This document shows positions 27,363 to 59,305 of a stretch of DNA of 64,000 nucleotides, one piece after another. Below the pieces are notes generated by a model. The model saw only the letters and a program-made list of their open reading frames with translations, made no database searches and was not told the DNA's origin. Positions within the stretch are counted from its first letter, which is position 1, and each line of letters begins with the position of its first letter. Position numbers and translations under genes: made by a program. The DNA comes from Rubrivivax sp. (lineage in GTDB: Bacteria; Pseudomonadota; Gammaproteobacteria; Burkholderiales; Burkholderiaceae_C), in assembly GCA_016789955.1 (NCBI GenBank), contig JAEUPB010000073.1, positions 57,498-121,497 of the forward strand. The letters run 5' to 3'.

Positions 27363-28331
27363 GTGAGCAGCACCAAGACCTTCGCCTCGCAGGCCGACCT
27401 CGCCGAGAAGCAGGTCACCTTCGCGCAGATCTCCGAGCACGCCTGGGCCTACACCGCCGAGGGCGACCCCAACACCGGCGTCGTGATCGGCGACGACGCG
27501 GTGCTGGTGGCCGACACGCAGGCCACGCCGGCGATGGCCGCCGATGTCATCCGCCGCATCCGCGAGGTGACCGACAAGCCGATCAAGTACGTGGTCCTGA
27601 CGCACTACCACGCGGTGCGCGTGCTCGGCGCCAGTGCGTACCGGGCCGAGGGTGCGCAGCAGATCCTCGCCAGCCAGGACACCTACGATCTGATCGTCGA
27701 GCGCGGCGAGCAGGACAAGGCCAGCGAGATCGGCCGCTTCCCGCGCCTGTTCCGCAACGTCGAGACGGTGCCTGCCGGCATGACCTGGCCGACGATGACC
27801 TTCACCGGGAAGATGACGCTGTGGCTGGGCAGGCTCGAGGTGCAGCTGCTGCAGCTCGGCCGCGGCCACACCAAGGGCGACACCGTGGTGTGGCTGCCGC
27901 AGGAGCGCACGCTGCTCTCGGGCGACCTGGTCGAGTTCGACGCCACGCCGTATGCCGGCGACGCCTACTTCCAGGACTGGCCGCACACGCTGGACCGCAT
28001 CGCCGAGCTGAAGCCGCTGGCGCTGGTGCCCGGCCGCGGCCCGGCCCTCGTGGGCGAGGAGCGCGCGCGCCAAGGGCTGCAGGTGACGCGCGACTTCGTC
28101 AGCGACGTCTGGGCGAACGTGCGCGCCGGTGCCGCCGCCGGCAAGGACCTGAAGACCGTCTACCGCGAGACCTACGCGGCGCTGAAGCCGCGCTACGGCT
28201 CCTGGGTGATCTTCGACCACTGCATGCCCTTCGACGTGACGCGCGCCTATGACGAAGCGACGCAGCACCGCGACCCGCGCATCTGGACCGCCGAGCGCGA
28301 CCGCCAGATGTGGGAGACGCTGGAGGGCTGA
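27363..28331 (+). CDS. MBL-fold hydrolase with a degenerate second zinc site
   Basis: A 322-residue protein. The start is the GTG at 27363 with GGAG 10 nt upstream; the frame extends to 27219, but that part overlaps the divergent gene's start. The motif-2 region reads THYHAVRVLGA (His81, His83), so the usual HxHxDH has lost Asp (Val85) and the last His (Arg86). Motif 3 His169 (RGHTKGD) and motif 4 Asp188 (LLSGDLVE) remain. The final His of PGHGP is Arg225 (PGRGP). One zinc could still bind through three His; the second site looks lost. It is followed after 2 nt by the FAD monooxygenase, so the two are coupled. Confidence 0.82.
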   Translation: MSSTKTFASQADLAEKQVTFAQISEHAWAYTAEGDPNTGVVIGDDAVLVADTQATPAMAADVIRRIREVTDKPIKYVVLTHYHAVRVLGASAYRAEGAQQILASQDTYDLIVERGEQDKASEIGRFPRLFRNVETVPAGMTWPTMTFTGKMTLWLGRLEVQLLQLGRGHTKGDTVVWLPQERTLLSGDLVEFDATPYAGDAYFQDWPHTLDRIAELKPLALVPGRGPALVGEERARQGLQVTRDFVSDVWANVRAGAAAGKDLKTVYRETYAALKPRYGSWVIFDHCMPFDVTRAYDEATQHRDPRIWTAERDRQMWETLEG

Positions 28332-28333
28332 GC

Positions 28334-30082
28334 GTGGCGGCCACCGCCGAGGCCGCGCTGTCGTACGTGTCGGACGCGCGCACGATCCAGGCGCACGCCT
28401 ACGCCTACCGGCGCTCGCCCGACCAGGATGCTGCCGAGCCCCTGCGGCATGCGGTGGTGGTGGTCGGCGCCGGGCCGGTGGGGTTGAGCCTGGCGATCGA
28501 CCTCGCGCTGCGCGGGCGCGCGCGCGGCCAGCGTGTGCTGCTGCTGGACAACGACCACCGCCTCTCGACCGGCTCGCGCGCGATCTGCTTCGCCAAGCGC
28601 ACGCTCGAGATCTGGGACCGGCTCGGCGTGGGCGACCCGATGTGCGCCAAGGGCGTGGGCTGGGGCGTCGGCCGCGTCTTCCTCGGCACCGAGCAGCTCT
28701 ATCGGTTCGACCTGCTGCCCGAGGCGGGACACGAGCGCCCGGCCTTCATCAACCTGCAGCAGTACTACGCCGAGGCCTACCTCGCGGTGCGCGCGGCCGA
28801 GCTGCCGAACCTGGAGATCCGCTGGCGGCATGCGGTCGCCGGCCTCGCGACGCACGACGATGGCGCGCGGCTGCAGGTCGACACGCCCGACGGTCCGTAC
28901 GCGATCGACGCGGGATACGTGGCCGCCTGCGACGGCTCGCGCTCGCCGCTGCGCGCGATGCTCGGCCTCGAGAGCAAGGGTCGCGTGTTCCGCGACCGCT
29001 TCCTGATCGTCGACGTGCGCATGGCCGCCGACTTCCCGGCCGAGCGCTGGTTCTGGTTCGACCCGCCGTTCCACCGGGGCCAGAGCGTGGGACACGGGAG
29101 CAGCACGCCTTCCAGCGTGCTGCTGCACCGCCAGCCCGACGGCGTGTGGCGCATCGACTTCCAGCTCGGCTGGGACGCCGACCCCGAGGCCGAGAAGCAG
29201 CCCGAGCGCATCCGTCCGCGGGTGGAGGCGATGCTGCAGCAGGCCCTGGGCCGCGACGTGCCGTTCGAGATCGAGTGGGCCAGCGTCTACACGTTCGCCT
29301 GCCAGCGCATGGCGCGCTTCCGCCACCGGCGCGTGCTGTTCGCCGGCGACTCGGCCCACGGCGTGTCGCCCTTCGGCGCACGCGGCGCGAACTCCGGCGT
29401 GCAGGACGCCGAGAACCTCGCGTGGAAGCTCGACGCCGTGCTGCGCGTCGCGGCCCCCGACCGGCTGCTCGACAGCTACGCCGACGAGCGCGAGCACGCG
29501 GCCGACGAGAACATCCTGAACTCCACGCGCGCCACCGACTTCATCACGCCGAAGAGCGCGGTGAGCCGGCTGTTCCGCGACGCGGTGCTGACGCTCTCGC
29601 GCCAGCACCCGTTCGCGCGCACGCTGGTCAACAGCGGCCGGCTCTCGGTGCCGGCCACGCTGCACGGCTCGGCGCTGAACACGCCCGACGCCGACGGCTG
29701 CGCCGGGCGCATGGTGCCGGGCGCACCGGCGGCCGATGCGCCGGTGGAGCGCGACGGGCGCCGCACGTGGCTGCTGCGTGAACTCGGCGGCGACTGCACG
29801 CTGCTGGTGGCGCACGGCGCCGGCAGTGCGGCCTTGTCGGAGGCCCTGACCCGGGAGGCGCTGCCGCTGCCGCTGCGCGTGCGGCACGTGATGCCAGCGG
29901 GCGCGGCGGGCGCCGATGCCGACGCGCTGGTGGACGTTGAAGGCCTCGTCGCGCAGCGCTACGACCTGCGCCCGGGCAGCGCGGTGCTGCTGCGCCCGGA
30001 CCAGCATGTCTGCGCGCGCTGGCGCGTGCCGCGGCCCGAGATCATCGCCGCGGCGATGCGCCGCGTGCTGGTGCTGGATTGA
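28334..30082 (+). CDS. FAD-dependent aromatic-ring monooxygenase (MhpA/PheA type), copy 1
   Basis: A 582-residue class A flavoprotein hydroxylase. The GTG at 28334 lies just after the GGAGGG at the end of the preceding gene. Motifs: VVVGAGPVGLSLAIDLALRG (GxGxxG), a DG motif in AACDGSRSPLR, and the GD motif VLFAGDSAHGVSPFGARGAN. A thioredoxin-like C-terminal domain follows. It resembles 3-(3-hydroxyphenyl)propionate and related phenol hydroxylases that use NAD(P)H and O2. It shares ordered blocks with the second copy at 30969-32612 (for example YRFDL.PEAGH, WRIDFQLGW.ADP and STR.TDFITPKSA), so the two are paralogues. It is followed by a DUF2783 gene. Confidence 0.85.
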   Translation: MAATAEAALSYVSDARTIQAHAYAYRRSPDQDAAEPLRHAVVVVGAGPVGLSLAIDLALRGRARGQRVLLLDNDHRLSTGSRAICFAKRTLEIWDRLGVGDPMCAKGVGWGVGRVFLGTEQLYRFDLLPEAGHERPAFINLQQYYAEAYLAVRAAELPNLEIRWRHAVAGLATHDDGARLQVDTPDGPYAIDAGYVAACDGSRSPLRAMLGLESKGRVFRDRFLIVDVRMAADFPAERWFWFDPPFHRGQSVGHGSSTPSSVLLHRQPDGVWRIDFQLGWDADPEAEKQPERIRPRVEAMLQQALGRDVPFEIEWASVYTFACQRMARFRHRRVLFAGDSAHGVSPFGARGANSGVQDAENLAWKLDAVLRVAAPDRLLDSYADEREHAADENILNSTRATDFITPKSAVSRLFRDAVLTLSRQHPFARTLVNSGRLSVPATLHGSALNTPDADGCAGRMVPGAPAADAPVERDGRRTWLLRELGGDCTLLVAHGAGSAALSEALTREALPLPLRVRHVMPAGAAGADADALVDVEGLVAQRYDLRPGSAVLLRPDQHVCARWRVPRPEIIAAAMRRVLVLD

Positions 30083-30105
30083 TCCGAGCGACCGAGGACG
30101 CCGCC

Positions 30106-30300
30106 ATGCCGCTGGTCACCACGCCGAACCTCTCCGCGCCCGACGACTTCTACGAAGCGCTGATCGACGCGCACCGCGACCTGATCGACGAGCAGAGCCA
30201 CGCGCTCAACGCGCGCCTCGTGCTGCTGCTGGCCAACCACATCGGCGATCTCGGCGTGCTGCGCGAGGCGCTGCAGGCGGCCCGGGAGGCGGCTGGCTGA
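30106..30300 (+). CDS. DUF2783 small protein, copy 1
   Basis: A 64-residue protein starting MPLVTTPNLSAPDDFYEALI, with GAGG 7 nt before the ATG; a TTG at 30079 overlapping the previous stop is the alternative. It is acidic and probably all-helical, with the core LNARLVLLLANHIGDLGVLREAL. It belongs to the DUF2783 family by this core and by context. A clear paralogue lies at 30680-30928. Both copies directly follow an FAD monooxygenase gene, which suggests a small accessory or stabilising subunit. No function is established. Confidence 0.75.
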   Translation: MPLVTTPNLSAPDDFYEALIDAHRDLIDEQSHALNARLVLLLANHIGDLGVLREALQAAREAAG

Positions 30301-30339
30301 AGGCCGCGCCTCTGCGCTCGCCCCGCGGGAGCAGCCTCG

Positions 30340-30636
30340 TTACTTCTTCGCGCCGGCTTCCAGCTTGGACACGCGCTGCTGCAGCTTGGTCACCTGCCCG
30401 GTCAGGTTCTTGTCGAGCGCCGACATCTCGTTCACGGTCTCTGCCAGCGTCTTGACGGTGTTGTTGTAGGAATCCTTGAACGCCTTGAGCTGGTCTTCCA
30501 GACTCTTCAGACCGGACTCCAGGGCCTTCTGTGCCGAGTCCTGGCCCGACTTGGCGCTGTCCAGTGTCTGGACCGTCTTGGTCAGCGCCGCCATCTGGGA
30601 CTCGATCTGGTCGAGCCGTCTGCTGTCGTCGAACAC
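30340..30636 (-). CDS. Small coiled-coil protein of unknown function
   Basis: A 98-residue protein. The GTG at 30636 is preceded by GGAAAGGG; the longer frame to 30882 is antisense-like Arg/Ser-rich sequence. It is charged, has no Cys or membrane segment, and shows heptad hydrophobic spacing almost throughout (IESQMAALTKTVQTL, LKSLEDQLKAFKDS, LTGQVTKLQQRVSKLEAGA), so a long coiled coil is predicted. Use of Lys, Asn and Gln is higher than in neighbouring genes. It lies downstream of the second DUF2783 gene on the same strand, between the two monooxygenase cassettes. I cannot assign a role; phasin-like or scaffold proteins look similar. Confidence 0.6.
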   Translation of the reverse strand: MFDDSRRLDQIESQMAALTKTVQTLDSAKSGQDSAQKALESGLKSLEDQLKAFKDSYNNTVKTLAETVNEMSALDKNLTGQVTKLQQRVSKLEAGAKK

Positions 30637-30679
30637 GCTTCGCCCTTTCCGGAAGCCACGCAAATCGCGTGGCGCGACC

Positions 30680-30928
30680 TTACGCAATGGCCGTTGCGGA
30701 GCCGTTGCGAGGCGGCATGCGCGGGCGGGCGTCAGGCGGGGTTGTCCACCGCGCCACCGCGATCGCCTCGCTGAGCACGGCGCGGTCTCCGACATGGTTC
30801 GCGAGCACCAGGACGAGCTTCGCGAGCATCTTCTGCGCTGCCGTGTCGTCCAGGCCGCGCTGCGCATCGACCAGTTCGGCATAGAAGCCGTCGGGGTCGT
30901 CGATGTTCGGGGTCAGGGTCAGCGGCAT
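30680..30928 (-). CDS. DUF2783 small protein, copy 2
   Basis: An 82-residue protein starting MPLTLTPNIDDPDGFYAELV, with a good ribosome site (AGGAGA, 6 nt upstream). The core KMLAKLVLVLANHVGDRAVL is closely similar to the copy at 30106 (LNARLVLLLANHIGDLGVL). The C-terminus is longer, with a Pro/Arg-rich tail. It directly follows the second FAD monooxygenase (40 bp gap) on the minus strand. The repeated pairing argues that the protein acts together with the monooxygenase. Confidence 0.75.
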   Translation of the reverse strand: MPLTLTPNIDDPDGFYAELVDAQRGLDDTAAQKMLAKLVLVLANHVGDRAVLSEAIAVARWTTPPDARPRMPPRNGSATAIA

Positions 30929-30968
30929 CGGGGTCTCCTGGCGATCGGCCGGAAGGGTCGCGACAGGT

Positions 30969-32612
30969 TCAGCGGCCGAGGCAGCGCGCCATCGCCTGCC
31001 GGACGCGCGCCTCGTCGTAGCTGCGCCAGCGTGCCGCGACATGCTGGTCGGGCCGGATCAGGTACACGGTGCCCGGGCGCGCGTCGTAGCGCTGGTGCAG
31101 CAAGCCGGCGGCATCGTGCAGATCGCGTCCGACGATGACCACGCGGGCGCTGACGCCGCCGTCCAGCCGCAACCGGTCCACCGGCAGCACGCCGAAGCTC
31201 AGCAGCACGAAGCCGCCGCGCAGGTGCTCGAGCAGCCACCCGGGGCGACCCTGCGCGTCGTGCACCGGCGCGTCGGACGCGTTGGTGCCGGGGCGCATCT
31301 CGCCGGCGAACGGCTCGTCGTCGGGCGTGTTCAGGCTCGACGCCACGTACGGCGTCGGCCGCGACAGCCGCCCGCTGTTCACCAGCGGCCGCGCGAAGGC
31401 GTGGTCATGCGCCAGCTCGAGCACCGCGTCGCGCAACAGCCGCGCGGTGGCCGACTTCGGCGTGATGAAGTCGGTGGAGCGCGTCGAATGCCGCAGGTTG
31501 TCGTCGGCGGCGTAGGCGCGCTCTTCGTGGTAGCTGTCGACCAGCGTCTCGGGCGCCTGGCCGTCGAGCACGAGGCCCAGCTTCCAGACGAGGTTGTCGA
31601 TGTCCTGCACACCGGTGTTGGCGCCGCGTGCGCCGAACGGCGACACCTGGTGCGCCGCGTCACCCGCGAAGAGCACGCGCCCGTGGCGGAAGCGGTCCAG
31701 CCGCCGGCACGCGAACTGGTACACCGAGACCCACTCCAGCTCGAACGGCACGTCGGGCCCGAGCATCGCGCGGATGCGCGGCTCCACGTTCTCGGGCTTC
31801 TTCGCCTCCACCGGGTCGGCCTCCCAGCCGAGCTGGAAGTCGATGCGCCACACGTCGTCGGCCTGCCGATGCATCAGCACGCTCGACGGCGCCTGACCAC
31901 CGCCCACCTGCCCCTCGGCGTGGTGGAACCCGGGCTCGAACCAGAACCGGCGCTCGGTCGGGATGTCGGCCTTCATCACCACGTCGGCGATCAGGAAGCG
32001 GTCCTGGAAGAACTGGCCGGTGAACTCGCCGCCGACCATGCGGCGCGTGTCGCTGTTCGCGCCGTCGCAGGCGATCACCCAGTCGGCCTGCATCTCGAAC
32101 ACGCCGTCGGGCGTCTCCACCGTCAGCAGCGCATGGTCGGCGCGCTGCTGCAGCCCGATCAGCTTGTGTCGCCAACGCAGGTCGGCAAGCCCGCTTTGGT
32201 TGCAGGCATCTACCAAATACTCTTCCAGGTGGTACTGCTGCAGGTTGATCATCGCGGGCATGCGGTGCCCGGCCTCCGGCTGCAGGTCGAAGCGGTAGAC
32301 GAGGTCATCGCCGAAGTAGACCTTGCCGACCTGCCAGCTCACGCCCTTGTCGACCATGCGCGCGCCCACGCCGAGGCGGTCCCAGATCTCCAGCGGCCGC
32401 TGTGCGTAGCACACGGCGCGCGAGCCGATGCTCACCGTGTCGCTGTCGTCCAGCACCACGCTGGGGATGCCCTGCGCCGCGCAGTCCAGCGCCGCGGTGA
32501 GGCCGATCGGCCCGGCCCCGACGATCACCACCGGATGCCGGCGCGCGGCGCCGAGCCGCTGCTCGTCGCTCTGGCGGTACGGGTAGGTCGGATAGCGGTA
32601 GGTCTTCAGCAT
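30969..32612 (-). CDS. FAD-dependent aromatic-ring monooxygenase, copy 2
   Basis: A 547-residue class A flavoprotein hydroxylase, starting MLKTYRYPTYPYRQSDEQRL. Motifs: PVVIVGAGPIGLTAALDCAA for FAD, the DG motif IACDGANSDTRR, and the GD motif VLFAGDAAHQVSPFGARGAN. A C-terminal thioredoxin-like domain ends near YLIRPDQHVAARW, the same ending block as copy 1 (LLRPDQHVCARW). The likely reaction is NAD(P)H- and O2-dependent hydroxylation of a phenolic substrate. It is preceded by the VOC gene (26 bp gap) and followed by DUF2783. Aromatic degradation is inferred; no ring-cleavage enzyme other than the VOC protein is nearby. Confidence 0.85.
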   Translation of the reverse strand: MLKTYRYPTYPYRQSDEQRLGAARRHPVVIVGAGPIGLTAALDCAAQGIPSVVLDDSDTVSIGSRAVCYAQRPLEIWDRLGVGARMVDKGVSWQVGKVYFGDDLVYRFDLQPEAGHRMPAMINLQQYHLEEYLVDACNQSGLADLRWRHKLIGLQQRADHALLTVETPDGVFEMQADWVIACDGANSDTRRMVGGEFTGQFFQDRFLIADVVMKADIPTERRFWFEPGFHHAEGQVGGGQAPSSVLMHRQADDVWRIDFQLGWEADPVEAKKPENVEPRIRAMLGPDVPFELEWVSVYQFACRRLDRFRHGRVLFAGDAAHQVSPFGARGANTGVQDIDNLVWKLGLVLDGQAPETLVDSYHEERAYAADDNLRHSTRSTDFITPKSATARLLRDAVLELAHDHAFARPLVNSGRLSRPTPYVASSLNTPDDEPFAGEMRPGTNASDAPVHDAQGRPGWLLEHLRGGFVLLSFGVLPVDRLRLDGGVSARVVIVGRDLHDAAGLLHQRYDARPGTVYLIRPDQHVAARWRSYDEARVRQAMARCLGR

Positions 32613-32638
32613 CGCCGCGGCCCGTGCCTCTCGAGTGC

Positions 32639-33187
32639 TCAGGCGCCCTGCGGCGCGGCGAACTCGCGCTGGTGCATCCACGCCGCGTGGCGCGGCGCCC
32701 TCTTGGTGCGCGACCACTCGGAGAGCATCGCCCACTTCACGTCGTCGAGCTGCTGCATCTGCTCGGGCGTGGCGGTGTCGGCCGCCAGTTCGAGGCGGTG
32801 GCCGTTGGGGTCGAAGAAGTAGATCGACTGGAAGATCGTGTGGTCGGTGGGCCCGATCACGTCGATGCCTGCGGCCTGCAGGCGGGCCTTGGCCGCGAGC
32901 AACTCGTCGACGCCGCCGACCTTCAATGCGATGTGCTGCACCCACGGCGGCGTGTTCGTGTCGCGACCCATCGGCGGCGAGTTCGGCAGCTCGAAGAACG
33001 CGAGGATGTTGCCGCCGCCCGCATCGAGGAACAGGTGCATGTACGGGTCGGGCTCGTGCGTGCTGGGCACGCGGTCCTCGGCGATCGCCAGCACGAAGCG
33101 CATGCCCAGGTGCTGCTCGTACCAGCGCACGGTCTGTTCGGCGTCGATGCAGCGGTAGGCGACGTGGTGGAAACGTTCGATCGTCAC
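32639..33187 (-). CDS. VOC-family (glyoxalase/extradiol dioxygenase fold) protein
   Basis: A 182-residue protein with two VOC modules. The start is GTG at 33187 with AGGAG 7 nt upstream. Metal-ligand candidates are His in FHHVAYR, His in VQHIALKV and Glu in NGHRLELAADT. The DPYMHLFLDAGGGNILAFFE block fits extradiol-dioxygenase-like members. It is the first gene of the minus-strand cassette, so it may act on the product of the neighbouring FAD hydroxylase, for example as a ring-cleaving dioxygenase. Isomerase or binding roles are equally possible. Its promoter region holds the 22-bp palindrome at 33213-33234. Confidence 0.78.
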   Translation of the reverse strand: MTIERFHHVAYRCIDAEQTVRWYEQHLGMRFVLAIAEDRVPSTHEPDPYMHLFLDAGGGNILAFFELPNSPPMGRDTNTPPWVQHIALKVGGVDELLAAKARLQAAGIDVIGPTDHTIFQSIYFFDPNGHRLELAADTATPEQMQQLDDVKWAMLSEWSRTKRAPRHAAWMHQREFAAPQGA

Positions 33188-33212: not shown

Positions 33213-33234
33213 TATAGTAACTCGCGTTACTATA
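33213..33234. promoter_or_regulatory. Perfect palindromic operator at the VOC/monooxygenase promoter
   Basis: TATAGTAAC and GTTACTATA form perfect 9-bp arms around TCGC, 26 bp upstream of the VOC start. It is AT-rich in a very GC-rich background. The arms contain TATAGT/TACTAT hexamers that could double as a -10 box. This is what a TetR-type operator covering a promoter looks like. The rest of the gap to the tetR remnant at 33292 shows no other feature. Confidence 0.65.
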
Positions 33235-33291: not shown

Positions 33292-33633
33292 TCACCTGGA
33301 GTCCCCGGCTCACGAGCCGCCGCTCAGACGCTGCCGGCCCGCATGTACAAGGCCTCGCTGGTGGCCAACCGGGAGTTCAGCTCGCTGACCGCGTCCCAGC
33401 GCAAGCAGATCGTCAAGTTCCGCGACGAGCTCGAGGCCATGGTCGGCGACTGCCTCGCGGCGGGGCGCGAGACCGGCGAGTTCCAGTTCGAGGACCTCTC
33501 GATGACGCGCATGGCCGTCGTCTCGCTGTGCCGCTCGACGCTGCTGTGGCACTCCCCGCGCGGGCGCCTCACGCCGGAGGCGATCGGCGACTACTACGTC
33601 GAACTCGTGCTGGAGATGGTGGGCCGGCAGGCT
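33292..33633 (+). pseudogene. TetR-family regulator remnant (C-terminal domain only)
   Basis: The frame opens after a stop at 33289-33291. It encodes a typical TetR C-terminal ligand/dimer domain: MYKASLVANREFSSLTASQR from 33343, then RDELEAMVGDCLAAGRETGE and TPEAIGDYYVELVLEMVG. The whole N-terminal helix-turn-helix, about 90-100 residues, is missing; the 57 bp between the palindrome and the frame opening encode nothing like it. The frame also runs on without a natural stop into the dbpA 3' end. It is divergent from the VOC/monooxygenase cassette, so it was probably its repressor. A translated product could not bind DNA. The stretch 33634-33746 holds nothing else recognisable. Confidence 0.7.
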
Positions 33634-33746
33634 GCCCCGCGGACGCAGTCCAGCCGCCGATCGGCCTTGGCGAGTGTCGCGCAGCGATCTCATGAGTCAC
33701 GCGTCCGCAGGCCGCCGTTGCGATCGCCCGCCGGTCACGGCACGCC

Positions 33747-35126
33747 TCACCCCTCCAGCAGCCGCACCTTCACCGTCCGTCCCTTCACCTTGGTCTTGCC
33801 GAGCCCGGCCAGCACGTCGCGTGCCACGCTGCGCTCCACGGCCACGTAGGTCGAGAATTCGTTGATGTTGATCTTGCCGATCTGCGCCGCGGCATGGCCC
33901 AGGTCCTTGGTCAGCGCGCCCAGCACGTCGCCGGGGCGGATCTTCTCCTTGCGCCCGCCGAGGATCTGGATCGTGCACATCGGCGGCCGCAGCGGCTGAC
34001 CGCGGACCGGGGTGAGCGAGGCCAGCGGCTGCCAGGCCGACGTGAGGCCCAGCGCGTGCTCGATCTGGCCGACGCGGCCCATCTCGTCCAGGCTCGCGAG
34101 GCTGAAGGCCCAGCCCTCGGCATCGACTCTTCCCGTGCGGCCGACGCGGTGCGTGTGGGTTGCCGGCTCGGGCGTGACATCGACGTTGATCACCGCTTCG
34201 AGCCCGGTGATGTCGAGGCCGCGCGCCGCGATGTCGGTGGCGACGAGCACGCTGCAACTGCGGTTTGCGAACTGCACCAGCACCTGGTCGCGCTCGCGCT
34301 GGTCGAGGTCGCCGTGGAGTTCGAGGGCGACGTAGCCCTGCGCCTTCAACACCTGCACCAGGTCGCGGCATTGCTGCTTGGTGTTGCAGAAGGCCAGCGT
34401 GCTGACGGGCCGGTAGTGGTCGAGCAGCAGCGACACCGCGTGCAGGCGCTCCTCCTCGCGCACCTCGAAGAAGAGCTGGCGGATCTGGGTCGGGCTGTGC
34501 GGCTCGGCCACCGTCACCGTCTGCGGATCGCGCAGGAAGGCCGCGCTCAACCGGGCGATGCCCTCCGGATACGTGGCCGAGAACAGCAGCGTCTGGCGCT
34601 GCTTCGGGCACTGCCCGATCACGGTGGCGATGTCGTCGTGGAAGCCCATGTCGAGCATGCGGTCGGCCTCGTCCAGCACCAGCGTGTTGAGCGCATCGAG
34701 CTTCAGGCTGCCGCGCTCGAGGTGATCCAGGATGCGCCCCGGCGTGCCGACGACGATGTGGGCGCCATGTTCCAGGCTCGCGAGCTGCGGCCGCATCGTG
34801 CTGCCGCCGCACAGCGTGAGCGCCTTCACGTGGTCCTCCGCGCGCGCCAGGCGCCGCACCTCCTGCGTCACCTGGTCGGCCAGTTCGCGCGTGGGGCACA
34901 GCACGAGCGCCTGGACGGCAAAGCGGCGGGGGTTCAGGTTGGCCAGCAGCGCGAGCAGGAACGCCGCCGTCTTGCCGCTGCCGGTCTTCGCTTGTGCGAT
35001 CAGGTCCTTGCCGGCCAGCGCCAGCGGCAGGCTGGCGGCCTGGATCGGCGTCATCGATGCGTAGCCCAGGCGCTGCAGGTTCGCGAGCGTGTGGGGCGGC
35101 AGCGGCAGGGTCGCAAAGTCGCTCAT
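33747..35126 (-). CDS. dbpA: ATP-dependent RNA helicase DbpA
   Basis: A 459-residue DEAD-box helicase. Motifs in order: Q motif TPIQAASLPLALAGKD, Walker A AKTGSGKT, PTRELA, TPGR, DEAD in LVLDEADRMLD, SAT in LLFSATYP, and HRVGRTGR. The C-terminal about 75 residues (TIQILGGRKEKIRPGDVLGA) form the DbpA RNA-binding domain that recognises 23S rRNA hairpin 92. The role is late assembly of the large ribosomal subunit. It is divergent from the SUV3-like helicase, with only 17 bp between the two start codons. Confidence 0.93.
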   Translation of the reverse strand: MSDFATLPLPPHTLANLQRLGYASMTPIQAASLPLALAGKDLIAQAKTGSGKTAAFLLALLANLNPRRFAVQALVLCPTRELADQVTQEVRRLARAEDHVKALTLCGGSTMRPQLASLEHGAHIVVGTPGRILDHLERGSLKLDALNTLVLDEADRMLDMGFHDDIATVIGQCPKQRQTLLFSATYPEGIARLSAAFLRDPQTVTVAEPHSPTQIRQLFFEVREEERLHAVSLLLDHYRPVSTLAFCNTKQQCRDLVQVLKAQGYVALELHGDLDQRERDQVLVQFANRSCSVLVATDIAARGLDITGLEAVINVDVTPEPATHTHRVGRTGRVDAEGWAFSLASLDEMGRVGQIEHALGLTSAWQPLASLTPVRGQPLRPPMCTIQILGGRKEKIRPGDVLGALTKDLGHAAAQIGKININEFSTYVAVERSVARDVLAGLGKTKVKGRTVKVRLLEG

Positions 35127-57304: not shown

Positions 57305-59305
57305 TCAGCCTCCGAACGGCGTCGGGCGCACGTCGCCGCGCGCACCCGGCATGAAGTTCACGCGCCGCCGCTCGGCCAGGCGTTCGCCGAACATGCCACC
57401 GTCCAGCCGCCCCTCGACCAGCTCGTAGCCCATCAGGGCGAACACCCGCTCGCCGATGAACATCGGGCGCGCGTTGCCGTACCAATCCACGCACGACGCG
57501 CGGCAGCCGTCGGAGCCCGACACCGGCGCCGAGCGCAGGTCGCCGAGGGCGCGGAAGTCCAGCGCGCGCTCGCGCAGGAACAGCACCGAAGCCGAGCCCT
57601 GGTTTCCGGCCTGCATGGTGCCGCCGCGGCCGGAGGGGTCGATGACCGGCAGGCCGAGCAGGCCCTGGTCGGTGCCCGTGGGACGGTAGAAGAAGCCGTG
57701 CGTGCGTGTCTCGCCCTGGCGCGCGCCGGGCTGCACGTGGCGGCCGGCGAGCGTGGCGCCGCGGTCCAGCCGCACGGCGCTGAAGACCAGGTCGCTGCCG
57801 GTGTTGCCCACCAGCACGCCGTGCGCGCCCATCGCCTCGATGCGCTCGACGGCATGCCCCGGGTCCAGCGGCACGGCGTCGCCGCCGCCGGCCCAGCGCA
57901 CGGCCCAGGCTGCACTCTGGCGGCCGTCGCGCTGAGCACCGCCGTACAGCAGCCAGTCGCCCACGTAGCGGTTCTGCGTGGGTTGCGAGGCCGGCAACAG
58001 CCGGTAGGCCTCGCGCGGCGCGCTGCCGCGGCCGTCGCCGAACGAGGCCAGCGGCACGCGCAGCAACGCCGTGCCGCCCTGCACGCGGGCGTTGCCGAAC
58101 ATGCCTTCGCCCACGCCCGATCCGCGCAGCAGCACGTTCAGGTGGCCGCGTCCGTCCTCGAGGAACGAGAGCTGGTCGATCGGCACGCCGGCGGTCTTCA
58201 GCGCGGTGGGCGCCGTGCCGTCCAGCGGGATGCGGAACACCGCCGAGCGCGCGCCGCCGCCCGCGTCGGGGCGGCCGCCGGCGCCGCCGGTGCGCGACAC
58301 CGTCCACACGTACACCGACCCTTGCGACACGTAGAACACGCGCCCTGCCGGCCCCAGCGCGGCGGTGGACTCGCAGCGCAGGTCCTGCCCCGGGTCGCCG
58401 AGGTCGCAGCTCGTCACCGTGTGCAGCGCCAGCGTCTCGTCGGGGTCGAAGTCGTCATCGGTGCGGTGGATGCGCGTGGCCGGCAGGATGCGCTGCCAGT
58501 CCCCGGGCACGGCGCCGTCCCAGCGGCGGTACGACGGCAGCATCGTCAGCGGCGCAGGGCCGCCGGGCCGCAGCACCGTGGGGCTGTAGAAGACCAGCTT
58601 GCGGCCGATCAGCCGGCTCGCGTAGTTGCGCGACGAGTAGTAGTCGTAGCTGCGCAGGTGATGCGTGGAGCGATACGTGAGGCCGCCGCGAGCGTCGATC
58701 TCGAACAGGCCGATCTCGGTACCGCCGCGAGCGTACGAGTAGCCGATCACGACGATGGTGTTGCCGCTCACCAGCATCTCGTCGTACCAGGCGCCGCGCG
58801 GGTCGCTGCCCGGTGCGTAGGCGTCCACCGTCGAGACCGGCTGCAGGCTGTCGGCGCCGATGCGCACGGTGAACAGCCGCCCGCGGCGCAGCACCACGAG
58901 GTGGTCGCCGGCGCGCTTGACGATGCCACCTTCGTCGACGCCGGCGGTCTGCACGTTGGTGATCGACTCGGCGGCGGCGGCCGCCCCATCGGCGGACTTG
59001 GCGGCCACCGCGCCCGCAGTGGCGGGTGCCGGGGCCGGCGGTGCCGCCATCGGCTGGGCCGCAATGCCCGGCGAGCCGTTCAGCGACAACGCGAACGAGC
59101 GCCGTTCGAGCTGGCGGCGGCCGGCCTCGGCGCGCCAGCGGTCCAGCGCCCGCACCAGATCCTCGTCGCTGCGATAGGCCGGGAGGCTGGGCGCGGCCAC
59201 GGCGTCGGGTCCGGGGCCGGCGCAGGCGGCCAGCCACGCGAGCGCGACGGCGGCCAGCAGCGAGCGGGCTGAAGACCGGATGGTGGGGACAGGATGGGCG
59301 GGCAT
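57305..59305 (-). CDS. Beta-propeller domain lipoprotein
   Basis: A 666-residue protein. The N-terminus SLLAAVALAWLAACAGPG contains a lipobox (LAAC, Cys28), so it is probably a lipoprotein exported to the periplasm. The TNVQTAGVDEGGIVKRAGDH block (about 116-135) is the start of the secreted beta-propeller domain family (Beta_propel type). Repeated strand pairs such as VVLRRGRLFTVRI, NTIVVIGYSYA and RVFYVSQGSVYVW follow to the end. No catalytic residue can be named. A long Ala/Pro linker lies at about 80-110. It is convergent with nothing and starts 96 bp from the divergent transglutaminase-like gene. Confidence 0.75.
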   Translation of the reverse strand: MPAHPVPTIRSSARSLLAAVALAWLAACAGPGPDAVAAPSLPAYRSDEDLVRALDRWRAEAGRRQLERRSFALSLNGSPGIAAQPMAAPPAPAPATAGAVAAKSADGAAAAAESITNVQTAGVDEGGIVKRAGDHLVVLRRGRLFTVRIGADSLQPVSTVDAYAPGSDPRGAWYDEMLVSGNTIVVIGYSYARGGTEIGLFEIDARGGLTYRSTHHLRSYDYYSSRNYASRLIGRKLVFYSPTVLRPGGPAPLTMLPSYRRWDGAVPGDWQRILPATRIHRTDDDFDPDETLALHTVTSCDLGDPGQDLRCESTAALGPAGRVFYVSQGSVYVWTVSRTGGAGGRPDAGGGARSAVFRIPLDGTAPTALKTAGVPIDQLSFLEDGRGHLNVLLRGSGVGEGMFGNARVQGGTALLRVPLASFGDGRGSAPREAYRLLPASQPTQNRYVGDWLLYGGAQRDGRQSAAWAVRWAGGGDAVPLDPGHAVERIEAMGAHGVLVGNTGSDLVFSAVRLDRGATLAGRHVQPGARQGETRTHGFFYRPTGTDQGLLGLPVIDPSGRGGTMQAGNQGSASVLFLRERALDFRALGDLRSAPVSGSDGCRASCVDWYGNARPMFIGERVFALMGYELVEGRLDGGMFGERLAERRRVNFMPGARGDVRPTPFGG

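Follow-up and report, generated by a model that had tools for sequence, protein, structure and literature searches.

The window, a 64,000-nucleotide stretch of Rubrivivax sp. DNA (contig JAEUPB010000073.1 of GenBank assembly GCA_016789955.1, forward-strand positions 57,498 to 121,497), contains two facing gene cassettes, each pairing a flavin adenine dinucleotide (FAD)-dependent hydroxylase with a small DUF2783 protein. As the initial annotation had described, with correct coordinates, the plus-strand cassette runs from a metallo-β-lactamase (MBL)-fold gene through the hydroxylase to DUF2783, and it faces a minus-strand cassette that begins with a vicinal oxygen chelate (VOC)-fold gene and continues with the same two genes:

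27363 to 28331, plus strand: MBL-fold protein of the hydroxylase operon family (PF00753, 48 bits), carrying HYHAVRVLG
28310 to 30082, plus strand: FAD-dependent aromatic hydroxylase of the NF006002 (PRK08132) subfamily, MBL-operon clade (NF006002, 818.5 bits; PF01494)
30106 to 30300, plus strand: DUF2783 protein of 64 amino acids (aa), predicted three helices, proposed MhaB-type coupling subunit (PF10932, 107 bits)
30680 to 30928, minus strand: DUF2783 protein of 82 aa, proposed MhaB-type coupling subunit (PF10932, 91 bits; start and stop checked)
30969 to 32612, minus strand: FAD-dependent aromatic hydroxylase of the NF006002 subfamily, VOC-operon clade (NF006002, 816.8 bits; nearest tree rows G335-L058 and G204-L049)
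32639 to 33187, minus strand: VOC-fold protein that opens the minus-strand operon (PF00903, 67 bits)

Both hydroxylases scored far above the NF006002 cut-off of 416 bits and share 56% identity, which bears out their earlier description as paralogues; the two small proteins likewise both belong to PF10932 (cut-off 25 bits), with 49% mutual identity. The proteins scored against Pfam and NF006002 differ from the named genes in a few start residues, the minus-strand DUF2783 was scored without its last residues, and the exact start codon of the plus-strand hydroxylase is unsure. The DUF2783 genes are separated by 379 base pairs (bp), the cassettes lie within 6 kb, and the reading frames are intact. 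The window genome (79.6% complete) has two DUF2783 matches and, among the three best candidates scored, two NF006002 matches at E<=1e-120, all of them in these cassettes.

The linkage between DUF2783 and the hydroxylase was counted in a phylum sample of 349 genomes, with the hydroxylase called at E<=1e-120. DUF2783 occurred in 49 genomes and the hydroxylase in 49, and these were the identical 49. The initial annotation had proposed that DUF2783 is a functional partner of this hydroxylase family and had named a count of DUF2783 neighbors as the test that could refute it. The count favored the proposal instead: 51 of the 53 DUF2783 matches lie 8-426 bp downstream of a hydroxylase match on the same strand. 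The remaining two comprise a 22-bit match below the cut-off and a match on a short G004 contig (G, genome; L, locus) that has no hydroxylase match, where DUF2783 is fused to a C-terminal hydroxylase piece. Among 250 genomes of the window's family, DUF2783 was present in 174, the hydroxylase in 174 and both in 172, and G400 and G539 had a hydroxylase without DUF2783 at the cut-off used. A downstream DUF2783 was present in all 80 of the best 80 named loci, which were chosen by similarity to one hydroxylase and are mostly from Burkholderiales. Hydroxylase distances correlated with DUF2783 distances (r 0.79) and with MBL distances (r 0.67, 39 loci), and the hydroxylase–DUF2783 partial correlation given MBL was 0.61 (39 loci), all values being inflated by shared ancestry. 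Together with natural fusions of the two genes, these sequence data strongly support DUF2783 as a dedicated partner of NF006002 hydroxylases, in agreement with the earlier proposal.

The fusions were found in nine loci (L032, L050, L051, L126, L132, L136, L163, L206 and L207), in each of which a single open frame encodes the hydroxylase first and DUF2783 second. Since long open frames are an unreliable sign of fusion in GC-rich DNA, every fusion was read individually; one further candidate, L208, was dropped after its frame was read. Taxa and tree position suggest at least three separate fusion events, namely in a Cupriavidus group (L126, L132 and L136), in L163, and in L050 and L051 (genus g80). 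Because the fusions keep the same order, they argue for a lasting one-to-one association.

No adjacent Pfam DUF2783 was found for 13 of the 64 hydroxylase rows in the phylum sample. Eleven of these hydroxylases are followed by an open reading frame (ORF) of the same pattern, 59-70 aa long depending on the start chosen, and the two exceptions are L086, which is at a contig end, and L071, which has none. A profile of 52 DUF2783 sequences recovered seven of the 11 small ORFs at E<0.01. The remaining four (L087, L088, L089 and the second copy in L033) were chosen by position and pattern, the profile giving only E 0.08 for L089 and only E 3.7 for L088; a VOC-like ORF lies downstream of the divergent small partner in L088. 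When 12 such small proteins (ten from unpaired loci and two from P. xenovorans LB400) were compared by hhalign with 31 canonical DUF2783 proteins, the two groups aligned over 61 columns with 96.5% probability, an E value of 8.4e-10 and 20% identity. The small proteins are thus remote homologs of DUF2783.

This homology connects the window to a studied enzyme. LB400 has three NF006002 hydroxylases at E<=1e-80, and at one locus on chromosome 1 (L181) a hydroxylase scoring 745.6 bits is followed by a small ORF, a homogentisate dioxygenase (HgmA in Pfam), fumarylacetoacetase (FAH) and maleylacetoacetate isomerase (MAAI). As reported in the available text of PMC3053370, BxeA2727 and BxeA2726 lie beside hmgA1B1C1 on LB400 chromosome 1 and share 47% and 35% identity with MhaA and MhaB, the 3-hydroxyphenylacetate 6-hydroxylase of P. 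putida U; MhaA is described there as a flavoprotein and MhaB as a 60 aa coupling protein, and BxeA2726 is called MhaB. Genome, chromosome and gene order, rather than a locus tag, lead us to equate L181 with the BxeA2727-2723 cluster. Both window cassettes have the small partner of about 60 aa directly downstream of the hydroxylase, and it is homologous at profile level to the LB400-type partners. DUF2783 and MhaB may have stayed unconnected until now because a Pfam search leaves the LB400 small ORF blank. Among the papers listed and the available text on DUF2783, MhaB, mhaAB, 3-hydroxyphenylacetate 6-hydroxylase, bll2330 and homogentisate, no DUF2783–MhaB link was found, and the available text of PMC8449657, on a rival route, makes no mention of mhaA or mhaB.

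Predicted structures agree with a small helical component. The naturally fused protein of L163, modeled by AlphaFold2 together with 40 other rows, has a hydroxylase like p-hydroxybenzoate hydroxylase (PHBH) and a three-helix C-terminal domain joined by a disordered linker (predicted local distance difference test, pLDDT, 84.8; linker <50); the PDB entries that match it best are flavin hydroxylases, among them RslO9, PieE and HbpA. For residues 2-64 of the plus-strand DUF2783, the model reached pLDDT 96.3 and its helices span model positions 11-22, 27-45 and 48-62; a PDB search with this model gave nothing at E<=0.001.

Flavin hydroxylases of the PHBH fold (group A) carry bound FAD, which NAD(P)H reduces, and they form a flavin hydroperoxide. 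On the sequence comparisons above, we consider it probable that DUF2783 is an MhaB-type coupling subunit and that the cassettes encode MhaAB-like two-protein hydroxylases. Each cassette would then specify a two-protein aromatic hydroxylase in which the large protein, judging from its fold, acts as the group A flavin enzyme and DUF2783 (64-82 aa) is its stoichiometric three-helix partner. Homology to MhaAB and the gene order suggest that DUF2783 may tie the oxidation of NAD(P)H to hydroxylation of the ring rather than to the release of peroxide. The likely product would be homogentisate or a close analog, formed from a hydroxyphenylacetate-type acid and passed to the homogentisate dioxygenase, which the window genome encodes on another contig. 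One copy may come from an MBL-first operon type, in which IclR is often present in betaproteobacterial relatives, and the other from a MarR-regulated VOC operon type whose conserved operator it retains.

Several observations weigh against this proposal. G413 and G550 (two of 174 family genomes) have DUF2783 without a hydroxylase at the cut-off used, and no small ORF of this kind was found in the searched DNA downstream of the L071 hydroxylase. The structural models bear on fold and not on a hydroxylase–DUF2783 interface. The LB400 small ORF had no match in the Pfam search, so that its link to DUF2783 consists of the profile built here and its position; it measures 66 aa from the first ATG, compared with 60 aa for the published MhaB (PMC3053370, available text). 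On the MhaB side, the comparison with DUF2783 covered the LB400-type partner group, whereas the MhaB studied by experiment is that of P. putida U. Identity of the window hydroxylases to the LB400 MhaA-type protein is only 39% (plus) and 40% (minus), and they fall outside its well-supported clade, and substrate and mechanism may therefore differ from those of MhaA. No homogentisate gene lies beside either window cassette. According to the available text of PMC10983741, MhaB was not detected in the proteome of LB400 on 3- and 4-hydroxyphenylacetate, and the rise of MhaA on these substrates was not statistically significant. L071 itself is a long-branch hydroxylase and a possible natural exception to the pairing.

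The last such point comes from Bradyrhizobium. In the available text of PMC6710368, B. diazoefficiens bll2330-bll2329-bsl2328 (VOC, FAD oxidoreductase and DUF2783) are predicted to form an operon, to which a putative FixK2 box (TTGATCCAGATCAA) is assigned. The three genes were reported up 21.6, 7.2 and 6.6 fold in the wild type under anoxic denitrifying relative to oxic conditions, and down 4.2, 3.7 and 3.5 fold in an nnrR mutant (Table 1 of the same paper); because they change together, the reported data support the operon. Induction without oxygen, as reported, was unexpected and does not fit a simple oxygenase, and for this reason we hold the MhaAB-like proposal slightly less firmly.

Neighboring genes were compared by tblastn in 52 region sets (51 loci and the window), with flanks of about 8-9 kb, some of which end at contig ends; gene names other than dioxygenase, MBL and VOC were assigned by reading the query sequences. 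Homogentisate dioxygenase was present in 29 of the 52, 4-hydroxyphenylpyruvate dioxygenase in 6 and maleylacetoacetate isomerase in 13. Fumarylacetoacetase was present in 26, a number that rises to 35 when a second type is included, and 37 had homogentisate dioxygenase or a fumarylacetoacetase. MBL was found in 43, MarR in 36, VOC in 14, and both MBL and VOC in 10. An earlier clustering of the region sets gave equal or lower counts for these genes. In the best 80 named loci, the corresponding numbers were 69 for MBL, 50 for IclR, 34 for homogentisate dioxygenase and 28 for fumarylacetoacetase. With homogentisate dioxygenase in 29 of 52 region sets and MhaAB as the nearest studied system, the 'uncharacterised aromatic pathway' of the initial annotation was too pessimistic.

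The MBL proteins have a feature of their own, in that all 41 from clustered loci carry the motif H.HAVRVLG, including HYHAVRVLG in the window. Canonical MBL enzymes carry HxHxDH, and because H.HAVRVLG replaces it one metal site should be altered. This unusual motif, common to all the clustered MBL proteins, is one reason to take seriously a second interpretation, in which the protein pair is real but its reaction is not homogentisate formation; the enzyme would act on another aromatic compound or a side product, and MBL and VOC would process what it makes. We see this as a distinct possibility, although not the expected outcome. It accords with the lack of homogentisate dioxygenase in 23 of the 52 region sets and in 46 of the best 80 named loci (within the same flanks), with the position of the window copies outside the MhaA clade and with the reported anoxic induction of a Bradyrhizobium copy, and neither MBL nor VOC has, to our knowledge, a part in the 3-hydroxyphenylacetate route. 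The repeated linkage to dioxygenase and fumarylacetoacetase across many loci argues against it.

A different role for the small protein itself was also considered. DUF2783 could be a dedicated partner for folding, FAD loading or dimer assembly, with the coupling effect of MhaB reflecting the same structural role. Strict linkage, fusion and co-variation would suit any stoichiometric partner, and the three-helix fold has no function-suggesting PDB match at E<=0.001. However, a chaperone that acts only transiently would be hard to square with the nine loci that encode both proteins in a single frame, and the studied homolog is described, in the available text, as a flavoprotein with a coupling protein (PMC3053370). 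We consider this explanation unlikely, and a coupling subunit remains the preferred reading of DUF2783.

The initial annotation had further suggested that the cassettes serve two substrate branches or two steps of one pathway, marked by MBL in one and VOC in the other. The two cassettes do face each other within 6 kb with intact reading frames, which would suit such a division. Relatives of the window genes, however, do not keep MBL and VOC apart. Fourteen family loci were compared: 11 lie around hydroxylases close to the minus-strand copy, two belong to the same genus as the window and one holds a divergent cassette pair. Seven of them (L186, L187, L188, L190, L191, L192 and L196) have MBL, VOC, a single hydroxylase and DUF2783 in one run, with IclR in six, fumarylacetoacetase in all seven and dioxygenase in two. 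Four (L184, L185, L189 and L198) have MarR, VOC, hydroxylase and DUF2783 without MBL, and three (L193, L194 and L195) have MBL without VOC. Because seven relatives carry both with one hydroxylase, and both also occur in 10 of the 52 region sets, MBL and VOC are not alternatives and the suggested division was not borne out. The VOC cassette also has its own conserved operator, which ten MBL-type loci lack even at <=3 mismatches. We regard the two-branch proposal as improbable. By its sequence context, the minus-strand cassette is of the MarR-VOC operon type.

In a tree of 77 hydroxylases, the plus-strand copy fell in a 5-row group (support 100/97) together with L163, L155 (Delftia) and relatives of L155, and the minus-strand copy grouped with G335-L058 and G204-L049 (3 rows, 100/100), both of which are preceded by VOC. 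The LB400 MhaA-type rows formed a separate 15-row group (100/99). Each window hydroxylase has a counterpart row in another genome at 68% identity, yet the two are 56% identical to each other, and the minus-strand copy has a relative in the family at 75% identity. By tree position, the two cassettes are old paralogs from different hydroxylase clades. A recent local duplication retained for dosage, which the mirror layout and the 379 bp between the DUF2783 genes might suggest, is extremely improbable and, barring long-branch error in the tree, was ruled out because the hydroxylases fall in different supported groups, closer to other genomes' rows than to one another, with the 75% relative of the minus copy pointing the same way. 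Close cassette pairs are not unique to the window, since L195 (G401), in another family genome, also has two hydroxylase-DUF2783 cassettes, here side by side and divergent around an IclR gene.

Three further features lie between or beside the cassettes, of which the coiled-coil ORF and the TetR fragment are absent from the initial annotation:

30340 to 30666, minus strand: coiled-coil ORF between the cassettes, not counted in the system (weak coiled-coil matches, the best being SlyX just below cut-off)
33215 to 33232, no strand: perfect palindrome TAGTAAC-TCGC-GTTACTA, putative operator at which a repressor would control the VOC operon (genome scan, relatives)
33343 to 33849, plus strand: TetR-family regulator fragment consisting of the C-terminal domain alone (PF17932 TetR_C_24, 79 bits, aligned from profile position 25; no helix-turn-helix)

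The coiled-coil ORF had no counterpart in the 17 related loci compared. The palindrome (TAGTAAC-N4-GTTACTA) lies 28 bp before the VOC gene and is the only site in the genome at <=2 mismatches. Similar sites with 1-3 mismatches stand about 30-60 bp before VOC in L184, L185, L189, L198 and L058, and none was found at <=3 mismatches in the VOC-first locus L049, as in the ten MBL-type loci. The operator is thus conserved in a set of VOC-type relatives. The MarR gene is missing from its place next to the window's VOC promoter, where the TetR fragment stands instead; a search of 30 other genomes at E<=1e-15 found nothing related to this fragment, which is probably a gene remnant. A MarR protein 70% identical to that of L184 is encoded on contig 24 of the window genome (G000:C24, L205 6965-7423, minus strand), not beside VOC, and it is likely the cognate regulator of the palindrome. 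The genes that this MarR gene adjoins were judged by eye to encode ornithine cyclodeaminase and glutathione S-transferase (GST).

A broader conclusion, towards which we lean only a little more than away, is that DUF2783 and the small proteins adjoining MhaA-like enzymes form one superfamily of obligate coupling subunits. They would define a widespread two-protein subclass of PHBH-fold hydroxylases hitherto treated as single-component, in which the canonical branch runs with the metal-site-altered MBL and VOC as recurrent accessories of the homogentisate route. A Pfam family of unknown function would thereby gain a concrete, testable role, and proteins annotated only as 'FAD-dependent oxidoreductase' may need a second, easily overlooked gene of 60 aa, such that hydroxylases expressed alone might appear uncoupled or inactive. 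The little-studied two-protein hydroxylase would extend to 14% of the sampled phylum genomes (49/349) and 70% of the sampled family genomes (174/250). The reported anoxic induction in Bradyrhizobium makes the actual reaction a question worth testing.

Among known systems, the single-component enzyme MhpA represents the 3-(3-hydroxyphenyl)propionate hydroxylase family, which belongs to the same FAD_binding_3 superfamily. The window hydroxylases score 82-206 bits on five PRK06183 models, far under the model cut-offs of 390-1135 bits. Group D two-component monooxygenases combine an acyl-CoA-dehydrogenase-type oxygenase with a separate flavin reductase, and flavin reductases are larger than a protein of 64-82 aa. 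The window cassettes do not belong to this group (HpaBC type), as their oxygenase is a PF01494 protein, the model of a relative has PHBH-fold matches and the partner is only 64-82 aa long. In Table 1 of a 2018 review (PMC6165268, available text), 3-hydroxyphenylacetate 6-hydroxylase is listed among the Group D representatives; this placement, as it appears there, looks doubtful for the present family because the LB400 homolog is a PF01494 protein of PHBH type whose partner is far below reductase size.

The Bradyrhizobium operon has the same gene order as the minus-strand cassette. An identical TTGATCCAGATCAA box is present before VOC in L058 (G335), itself a VOC-hydroxylase-DUF2783 locus, whereas the window promoter lacks one even when a single mismatch is allowed, and the FixK2 box and anoxic induction reported for B. 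diazoefficiens set that operon apart. At 5714-5755 of L058, the FixK-type box and the MarR-type palindrome stand 10 bases apart before VOC, an arrangement that suggests joint control of this promoter by low oxygen and substrate.

The closest likeness is to MhaAB of P. putida U and its LB400 homologs. The window differs from them in that its small proteins are canonical PF10932 members, whereas the LB400 protein has no Pfam match, and in that its operons carry MBL or VOC with no homogentisate genes nearby. What the two systems share is an NF006002 FAD hydroxylase of PHBH type followed directly by a small partner, and partner profiles that are homologous to each other; homogentisate genes adjoin the LB400 locus and many DUF2783 loci.

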